A DNA stretch of 64,000 nucleotides, taken from assembly GCF_003416885.1 (NCBI RefSeq), contig NZ_QVPD01000001.1, positions 1 through 64,000 on the forward strand, in the 5' to 3' direction. Positions 23,521 through 26,500 of this stretch are shown one piece after another (within the stretch, counting starts at the first letter, position 1; the number at the start of each line of letters is the position of its first letter). The DNA is from Cognatiluteimonas weifangensis (lineage in GTDB: Bacteria; Pseudomonadota; Gammaproteobacteria; Xanthomonadales; Xanthomonadaceae). Both the position numbers and the translations under genes were made by a program. Under the pieces are notes generated by a model. That model made no database searches. It had not been told where the DNA came from and worked only from the letters and a program-made list of their open reading frames with translations.

Positions 23521-26500
23521 ATGTCCGCCCGCTTCGTCCACCTGCACCTGCACAGCGAATACTCGCTGCTCGACTCGACGATCCGCATCCCGGAACTCGT
23601 CGAGCGCTGCGTGGCGCTGGGGCAACCGGCGGTCGCGGTCACCGACCACAACAACCTGTTCGCGCTGGTCAAGTTCTACAAGGCCGCCGAGGCGAAAGGC
23701 GTCAAGCCGGTCGCCGGCGCCGACGTGCTGCTGGCCGAGGGCGACGAGCCGGCCACGCGCCTGACCCTGCTGTGCCGCGACCGCGACGGTTACCTGACGC
23801 TGTCGCGGCTGCTCACCCGCGCCTGGATGGAGGGCCAGCGCCACGACGGCGTGGTGCTGCGGCCGGACTGGCTGCGCGAGCACAACGCCGGGCTGTTCGC
23901 GCTGGCCGGCCGTCACAGCGAGGCCGGCCGGCTGGCCGCGGCCGGCAAGCACGAGCTGGCCGAGCAGTGGCTGGCCGACTGGCAGCGCCATACCGGCGAG
24001 CGCCTGCACCTGGAGCTGACCCGGACCGGGCGCGAGGGCGAGGAAGCCTTCAACGCCTTCGCCCTGGCGGCCGCCTCCGCGCGCGGCATCCCGGTGGTCG
24101 CCAGCAACGACGTGCGTTTTCTCGATGCCGCCGGCTTCCACGCCCACGAAGCGCGCGTGTGCATCTCCAGCGGACGCGTGCTCGACGACCCCAAACGCCC
24201 GCACGACTACAGCGCCGAACAGTTCCTCAAGCCCGCCGAGGCGATGGCCGCGCTGTTCGCCGACGTGCCCGACGCGCTCGACAACGCGCTGGCGCTGGCG
24301 ACGCGCTGCAACCTGGAGCTGGCGCTGGGCACCTACTATCTGCCCGCGTTCCCGGTGCCGGACGACGAGACCCTGGACAGCTGGATCCACGGCCGCGCCC
24401 GCGAAGGCCTGCAGCGCCGGCTGCAGCGCCATCCGCTGGCCGCCGGCAAGACCCGCGCCGACTACGATGCGCGCCTGGCCGCGGAGCTGGAGGTCATCGT
24501 CAAGATGGGCTTCCCCGGCTACTTCCTGATCGTCGCCGACTTCATCAACTGGGCCAAGGACCACGACATCCCGGTCGGCCCCGGCCGCGGTTCCGGCGCC
24601 GGTTCGCTGGTGGCCTGGGCGCTGGGCATCACCGACCTCGACCCCCTGCCCTACGACCTGCTGTTCGAGCGCTTCCTCAACCCCGAGCGCGTGTCGATGC
24701 CGGACTTCGACATCGACTTCTGCATGGACCGCCGCGACGAGGTGATCGACTACGTCGCCGGCAAGTACGGCCGCGACCGCGTCAGCCAGATCATCACCTA
24801 CGGCACCATGGCCGCCAAGGCGGTGGTGCGCGACACCGGGCGCGTGCTCGGCTTCCCTTACGGCTTCGTCGACGGCATCGCCAAGCTGGTGCCGATGACC
24901 CTGGGCATCAGCCTGGAAGACGCGCTCGGCCGCACCGAGAAGTCGCGCAACGACGAGGACTGGCGCTCCGACGAGCTGATCGCGCGCTACGCCGCCGAAG
25001 ACGACGTCCGCGACCTGATCGACCTGGCGCTGCAGCTGGAGGACCTGACCCGCAACGCCGGCAAGCACGCCGGCGGCGTGGTGATCGCGCCGACGCCGCT
25101 GTCGGAGTTCTGCCCGCTGTTCGCCGAGCACGACGGCCACGGCGGCGGCCGCAACCCGGTGACCCAGTTCGACAAGGACGACGTGGAGGCGGTCGGCCTG
25201 GTCAAGTTCGACTTCCTCGGCCTGCGCACGCTGACGATCATCGACTGGGCGGTCAAGGCGATCAACCAGAAGCGGGCGCAGCCCGCACCGACTCCCTTCT
25301 CCCCGCCCCGCGGGGAGAAGATGCCCGAAGGGCAGATGAGGGGCGCTCCTGAAGACGCCCTACTCGACATCTCGGCAATCCCGCTGGACGACACGGCCAC
25401 CTACGAACTGTTCGCCCGCGGCGACACCGTCGCCGTGTTCCAGTTCGAATCGCGCGGCATGCGCGAGCTGCTCAAGCGCGCGCAGCCGGACCGCTTCGAG
25501 GACCTGATCGCGCTGGTGTCGCTGTTCCGCCCCGGGCCGATGGCCCTGATCCCGGACTTCATCGAGCGCAAGCACGGTCGCGCCGAGGTGAAGTACCCGC
25601 ATCCGCTGCTGGAACCGGTGCTGGCGCCGACCTACGGCGTGGTCGTGTACCAGGAACAGGTGATGCAGACCGCGCAGATCCTGGCCGGCTATTCGCTCGG
25701 TGGTGCCGACCTGCTGCGCCGGGCGATGGGCAAGAAGAAGGTCGAGGAAATGGCCAAGGAGCGCGCCAAGTTCGAGGCCGGCGCGCTCGAGCACCACGGC
25801 ATTCCGGCGCGCGAGTCCGGCCCGATCTTCGACCTGCTGGAAAAGTTCGCCGGCTACGGCTTCAACAAGTCGCACGCCGCGGCCTACGCGCTGGTGTCCT
25901 ACCAGACCGCGTGGCTGAAGGCGCACCACCCGGCCGAGTTCATGGCCGCGGTGCTGTCCAGCGACATGGACAACACCGACAAGGTGGTCGGCTTCCTCGA
26001 CGAGGCGCGGGCGATGGGGCTGGCGGTGCTGCCGCCGGACGTCAACGCTTCGGACTACATGTTCGAGGCGATGCCTGCGTCCGTGTCCGGCCCGCCGGCC
26101 CCGGAGGCGGACCGGGCCTTACCGGCGCGGCCCGGATCCGCGCCCGTTGCGACCGCGACCGCCGGCGAGGCGGCGCAACCGGCGCCTGCCTGCACCGGGG
26201 TGATCCGCTACGGCCTGGGTGCGGTGAAAGGCGTCGGCCGCGGCGCCTGCGAGGCGATCGCCGCCGAGCGCGACCACGGCGGCACTTTCGTCGACCTGCT
26301 CGACTTCTGCCGGCGGGTGGATTCCACCAAGCTCAACAAGCGCGCGCTCGAGGCGCTGGTCAACGCCGGCGCGCTGGATGCGCTGGGCCGCAACCGCGCC
26401 TCGCTGATGCTGCAGCTGCCGGAAGTGCTGAAGGCCACCGAGCAGCTGGCGCGCGAGCGCGAAGCCGGCCAGGTGTCGTTGTTCGGCGGCCCCGCGGCGG

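Follow-up and report, generated by a model that had tools for sequence, protein, structure and literature searches.

A dispersed two-hairpin DNA repeat lying in frame in the finger-domain loop of DNA polymerase III alpha in Cognatiluteimonas weifangensis, and repeat-type inserts at the same loop in Lysobacteraceae

The dnaE locus and its inserted block

The window, i.e., the whole stretch of 64,000 nucleotides analysed here from the genome of C. weifangensis (G000), harbored a dnaE gene encoding the 1231-aa alpha subunit of DNA polymerase III, an in-frame block within it that carries a core repeat with two hairpins, an intergenic relative of this repeat, and a further copy in the leuS gene (Table 1). 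Comparison of the filled and empty sites revealed that dnaE of the same-genus genome G004 reads AAGCGGGCGCAGCCCGC-G-CTCGACATC and that the gene of the window was 75 nt longer at the same point, the insert consisting of the core, 6 extra nt on its left, and about 17 nt on its right. The sequence-only reading of this DNA had proposed an insert of 20 codons. Its in-frame insertion was borne out by the empty site in G004, but its length has to be revised to 25 codons, of which 52 nt are the core and the rest is flank. The arms of the main hairpin (25296-25306 and 25310-25320) paired perfectly over 11 bp, the 96-nt segment of the DnaE loop with the insert showed a folding z of -4.6, and a hand count on the DnaE alignment identified D564 as the counterpart of E. 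coli D555. No target-site duplication was visible at the dnaE site in comparison with G004, nor in a second filled/empty pair (G061/G010, see below). In addition, DnaE had a second Ala/Pro-rich stretch, located past the finger domain and ahead of the following conserved part (window 26070-26200); this stretch had no counterpart in the E. coli alignment and was of another length in the DnaE protein P0003.

Table 1. Coordinates of the genes and repeat features in the window
Feature	Position	Strand	Evidence or remark
dnaE, DNA polymerase III subunit alpha	23521..27216	+	NCBIfam PRK05673.1, 1434 bits, over cut-off; Pfam finger domain PF17657 at residues 570-758
Inserted block	25287..25361	+	25 codons missing in same-genus genome G004 (empty site L038); edges uncertain by about 1 nt
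Core repeat, 52 nt, two adjacent hairpins	25293..25344	+	39 genome copies aligned; 45 genome matches at E<=1e-4
Main hairpin, perfect 11-bp stem, 3-nt loop	25296..25320	+	Read from sequence
Small second hairpin, GCCC(GAA)GGGC	25323..25333	+	42 parsed copies compared
Intergenic long-form copy directly after dnaE	27231..27309	+	blastn, 82% over core (27262-27309)
leuS, leucine--tRNA ligase	50636..53491	-	TIGR00396.1, 1087 bits
Repeat copy in frame in leuS, other phase	51178..51237	-	54/60 ungapped; missing from leuS of same-genus G001 and G002 (L248, L246)

A dispersed repeat with a conserved structure

The ungapped match between the 60-nt block of dnaE (25285-25344) and the copy in leuS, which the sequence-only reading had pointed out, was reproduced and lies far above background, because the next best score anywhere in the window, on both strands, was only 35/60. 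The relative that it had noted right after dnaE was likewise recovered, as a gapped alignment, and the dnaE and leuS copies are read in different phases as it had stated, giving GEKMPEGQMRG and RGEGARRADEG, respectively. It had also regarded the block as a mobile-type repeat. A search of the genome (2,764,764 bases in 45 contigs) agreed with this view, returning 62 matches at E<=0.01, in part hits to one hairpin on its other strand, of which 45 reached E<=1e-4 (counts for palindromic queries include both strands and rest on a limited set of first-look candidates). In dnaE, the block was absent from all eight same-genus relatives compared, and neither of the two outcomes named in the sequence-only reading as refuting was obtained.

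Alignment of 39 copies at their right end uncovered a common core of about 50 nt, composed of a GC-rich hairpin of about 11-12 bp, the small second hairpin, and the tail GGATGAGGGGC. Among the 42 parsed copies, the arms of the second hairpin were GCC/GGC (14 copies), GCCC/GGGC, GCCCC/GGGGC, GGCCC/GGGCC, GGTCC/GGACC, and GGCGC/GCGCC, i.e., stems of 3, 4, or 5 bp with matched changes, and a single parsed copy had a one-pair stem only. Such matched changes of both length and letters indicate that structure is kept, not sequence alone, and the conserved level, as read from these copies, is DNA or RNA structure, not the peptide.

In the 39-copy alignment, most core copies lacked a 5' partner for the 3' tail, and the long-form copy after dnaE had a partial one (CCCCTCACCC vs GGATGCGGGG). 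This copy is framed by a further inverted pair, GGCAAAGCGG ... CCGCTTTGCC, so that the dnaE stop codon is directly followed by an imperfect palindrome of about 105 bp (window 27216-27325), a candidate terminator. Another GC-rich hairpin resembling the core (CTCCCCTTCTCCCGCTTGCGGGGGAGGAGGG) was observed at window positions 44672-44705, without the tail. The only Rfam match was to mir-4865 (E 0.68), which is weak and was attributed to chance.

In-frame copies in four genes

Five copies were found in frame in four genes, i.e., dnaE, leuS, icmF (two copies, with remnants within the same linker), and oleC (one copy), the last encoding olefin beta-lactone synthetase, and together they use two reading frames. 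Copies were called coding where long frames with high third-position GC ran through them; nine other copies with an open frame under a loose GC test were judged non-coding by eye, the frame being read for L023, L027, L029, and L048. The dnaE and icmF copies read GEKMPEGQMRG or GEKVPEGRMRG, and the oleC copy reads RGEGAQRADEG, close to the leuS reading given above. All five are sense-oriented, although the consensus is open in two sense and three antisense frames (the third sense frame contains a stop), suggesting either selection on the peptide or an orientation-dependent mechanism. Moreover, the dnaE copy and one icmF copy had an exact common stretch of 42 nt, including two substitutions that, by eye, were absent from the other 37 aligned copies. 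This identity with private substitutions points to copying of one from the other, or of both from one lost source.

For leuS, 71 of the 74 genomes were matched, four of them without a span over the site, and none of the 66 other genomes with both halves of the query side by side had room for the block (coordinates judged by eye; 19 read). For icmF, the linker between fixed motifs comprised 66 residues in G004 vs 141 in the gene with repeats, and in several other genera this linker was seen by eye to contain various kinds of repeat-like peptides, e.g., VPANAGTH..MDSRVRGNDGG (L289, L278, L285, and L296). The icmF linker may thus be another landing place in addition to the DnaE loop.

Empty and filled sites in relatives

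Among the eight same-genus relatives, G004 had a clean empty dnaE site, and the other seven had different loops from which the block was absent. Empty orthologous sites were also found for icmF in G004 and for leuS in the two genomes listed in Table 1. Furthermore, a second clean pair was identified, in which a 33-nt core palindrome (11 codons) lies in the DnaE loop of G061 and is missing in G010.

With the loop of the window as the query, 22 DnaE proteins were found, in which, by eye, the loop reads GEKMPEGQMRG (P0001), GEGARRADEG or GEGARRADGG (P0019 and P0004), or, in antisense, HPPFGHLPPQAGEG (P0017). P0001 is a near relative carrying the window's own DnaE insert, suggesting inheritance of this insert within the nearest lineage. 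The DnaE loop of P0002 contains two elements, the second of which has the same reading as the long-form copy after dnaE, PHPASLREAVPLPA. The insert of P0008 (RHCEGAERPRQSRN type) found only itself in the search.

Many repeat types at one DnaE loop

To place the insert in its family context, the DnaE segment was followed across Lysobacteraceae, where it was matched in 391 of the 395 genomes (among the matches listed). Thirty-seven genomes with weak best scores were searched again and 30 loci were then read; small inserts elsewhere may be missed, since the reading covered only these weak-scoring genomes and some others. Repeat-type inserts in this loop of the finger domain were found in at least 26 of the 391 genomes (one of them, G199, doubtful), representing 10 of the 54 genera. 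This count is made up of 20 of the 30 read loci together with G000, G001, G005, G006, G007, and G383. By eye and by period and fold tests, the 20 loci were assigned to the window's family (2 loci, i.e., G061 with the core palindrome only and G333 with the full core), to a heptamer type (17 loci; GGGATTC, GGGACTC, GTGATTC, and others), or to a doubtful type (G199). The remaining 10 loci were dropped, comprising seven of genus g45, L190 without an insert, the doubtful L192, and the unread L193.

Folding z ranged from -3.2 to -10.1 in 15 of the 17 heptamer inserts. Values near zero or positive were obtained for L188 and L214, whose folds were no better than those of shuffles, and for the one-armed arrays of G001, G005, G006, and G383. 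One-armed heptamer arrays without a palindrome (L034, L036, L037, and L304; z near 0) could have been made by local slippage. Nine further loops included heptamers in two (L304 and L306) and no clear repeat in seven, among them G184.

Dispersal within genomes was examined with three inserts (L195, L203, and that of G333) and with the G199 type, most of the 26 genomes thus being covered without a query of their own. The L195 insert matched in eight of the nine genomes tried (4 to 86 matches), the exception being G371, and the L203 insert had 92, 38, and 143 matches in G254, G123, and G289, respectively, whereas G000 and G004 gave no match to it. For the G333 insert, which belongs to the window's family, 11 matches were counted in G333 itself (the genome of L093) and 42 in G061, with a further 25, 18, and 8 in the genome of L142, G289, and G184, respectively. 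The D-type insert (L191, L131) was rejected as a dispersed repeat, with only two matches in G199 including itself and one in another genome. Two other groups showed neither a palindrome nor a repeat and were not counted, namely, the Nitrosospira-type loops (L145, L154, and L155) and the inserts of genus g45 (L187, L207-L211, and L213). In g45, these loci and L088 have in common an insert of about 15-18 codons in this loop, which lacks a palindrome and was seemingly inherited.

The presence of a repeat insert (25 rows) was mapped on a tree that FastTree built from 108 distinct DnaE flanks, the loop itself being excluded. Of the 131 loci at the start, 10 short or unread ones (L108, L193, and L303-L310) and 13 identical in the flanks were omitted. 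At least 18 changes were required, or 20 when insert types were distinguished, on rows that are enriched for inserts and with a count that is blind to gain vs loss. The variety of repeat types at one loop, taken with the empty sites of close relatives, suggests that insertion occurred repeatedly in Lysobacteraceae.

Two accounts of this concentration other than tolerance were considered. First, the DNA at the DnaE site could attract insertion or repeat expansion, for example, through a GC-rich stretch or replication pausing. Different repeats do start within a few codons of each other, after conserved AIN codons, and some inserts are tandem heptamers, a possible start for slippage. However, start points and flanks vary by case, inspection of seven groups by eye showed no target word in common, and the visible events are the surviving, in-frame ones only. 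Such a target preference is considered unlikely. Second, repeats in the finger loop could change polymerase behavior (processivity, hairpin passage, or mutation rate) and be kept by selection, the hot spot then not resulting from tolerance only. The high frequency at the DnaE loop, as compared with a leuS site filled in G000 and in none of the other 66 genomes that span it, would accord with such a benefit, as would the concentration of REPs in replication and repair genes and the speculation on mutators in the accessible part of PMC3733652. Against it, the inserts had no common peptide motif by eye, ranged from 11 to about 200 codons, and were patchy within genera, and similar repeat-like peptides fill the linker of icmF, which encodes a metabolic enzyme; a benefit is likewise considered unlikely. 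The DnaE loop is instead regarded as a hot spot owing mainly to the permissiveness of the site and the indispensability of dnaE, rather than to targeting.

Related elements and known systems

Outside the family, the consensus matched in 303 of 72,556 plasmid records, at no fewer than 1,791 places, chiefly in Rhizobium, Sinorhizobium, and Shinella, and in one of 50,697 phage records. The best listed plasmid place had 96.2% identity over 52 nt in Sinorhizobium, where the elements are dispersed, and one plasmid record had a place of at least 99% identity outside the matches listed. The copy on S. meliloti pSymB had the same edges, with the small hairpin in its 3-bp form. In the 60 listed plasmid records, the best place lay under an annotated gene in 2 and under none in 49, and 9 had no annotation, the gene table being incomplete. 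Named S. meliloti repeats in the accessible text of PMC2573895 include RIME, Sm-repeats, and AB/C palindromes; the resemblance of the window's core to rhizobial dispersed copies is one of sequence. This near-identity poses the question by what route a hairpin that lacks a known transposase came to occur in two classes.

The matches outside dnaE also bear on the idea that the block arose locally through duplication or slippage and resembles the other copies by convergence of GC-rich hairpins. The heptamer arrays of other genera are indeed tandem repeats, but an origin in place is contradicted by the ungapped leuS identity, the 42 nt identical with icmF, and the Sinorhizobium identity over the whole 52 nt, and it is considered extremely improbable.

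Palindromic repeats inserted in frame are already established, as documented in the accessible portions of PMC2229807 and PMC2759123. Like the window's repeat, the Rickettsia palindromic elements (RPE) and the Wolbachia elements are palindromes that lie in frame in conserved genes as well as between genes, and the window's repeat is of the RPE type as a kind, being a multi-copy palindrome outside genes and in frame inside them, with empty orthologous sites. RPE are 100-150 bp long according to the accessible part of PMC3767692. They occur in another bacterial class, and the likeness to the 52-nt core is drawn here at the level of kind and, for DnaE, at the level of the gene. The same source places RPE-4 in DNA polymerase III alpha of R. 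japonica, R. conorii, and R. africae and RPE-6 in that of R. felis, so that four of six Rickettsia species have one or the other in DnaE. The inserts there lie at the same sites in all orthologs compared, and a common origin was favored, with hot spots not excluded. As to this choice between an insertion hot spot and one old diverged insert in Rickettsia DnaE, the Lysobacteraceae loop points to repeated insertion.

The sequence-only reading had held that Xanthomonadaceae are not usually cited for in-frame repeats, which has to be corrected, as genes of Xanthomonas and Stenotrophomonas are cited already in the accessible part of PMC3733652. The in-frame REPs reported there lie in tRNA synthetase genes of X. 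oryzae, in recB of X. campestris and X. oryzae, and in tRNA pseudouridine synthase genes of S. maltophilia, and a REP in dnaE of R. conorii is also listed. These GTAG/CGTC REPs are, like the window's repeat, short palindromes that are mostly intergenic, with some in replication or repair genes. Unlike the window's repeat, they carry a GTAG or CGTC tag, found by eye on neither strand of the 50-nt consensus, and come with RAYT transposases, whereas no Y1 gene was found in G000. The GGGAATC heptamer repeats of Xanthomonas described in the accessible part of PMC4692102 form a family different from the window's element, and repeats of the same kind fill the DnaE loop of other genera, e.g., L195, L200, and L201. 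That source gives 7-11% of the Xanthomonas repeats as intragenic and mentions dnaE once in its main text, as a repeat-associated gene on a genome map. Within a literature search that most subscription papers lay outside, no report was found that places the window's element in genes of Lysobacteraceae or that describes several types of repeat at a DnaE loop of this family.

Spread and persistence of the repeat

The Y1/RAYT transposase domain (PF01797), the only mobilization function looked for, was not found in G000 (99.99% complete) or in G001, and was present in five of the nine genomes of the genus. G000 had 45 and G001 had 14 repeat matches. With no Y1/RAYT transposase gene found in G000, single-stranded or replication-linked copying may have moved the hairpin.

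Taken together, these results make it very probable that the dnaE block is a dispersed two-hairpin repeat that likely spread at the DNA level and lies in frame in the finger loop, where it is predicted to be translated and is likely tolerated. The 52-nt repeat would have spread as DNA and landed in frame in this loop of the polymerase, and the enzyme probably tolerates the 25 extra residues within which the copy is predicted to be translated. The dispersed copies, the two reading frames, and the empty site in G004 agree with the overall interpretation of the sequence-only reading, i.e., DNA-level spread into protein genes. The most likely explanation is that the hairpin drives its own copying in replication and that a strict selection then lets only harmless in-frame events persist. 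Insertions that bring stop codons, shift the frame, or yield damaging peptides would be removed, and the survivors would be short, charged, probably disordered inserts in loose loops. Several findings run counter to this explanation, namely, that the dnaE insert exceeds the core on both sides, more than an insertion of the core by itself would account for; that the two filled/empty pairs show no target-site duplication; that no mobilizing gene was found in a search for Y1; and that all five coding copies are sense-oriented.

A more far-reaching, unlikely reading is that the finger loop of DnaE serves as a permanent landing pad in Lysobacteraceae, where the hairpin repeat active in a given lineage would end up because the polymerase benefits from it, e.g., in copying past hairpins. 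One such repeat would also have moved between gammaproteobacteria and alphaproteobacteria with no transposase to itself. The loop offers many natural pairs of an essential enzyme with and without repeat peptides, in which the cost or benefit of these peptides is measurable. The longest insert observed, in the DnaE loop of G371 (L197), comprises about 200 codons, with a long unit present about six times, each unit containing heptamers, and its frame is open throughout.
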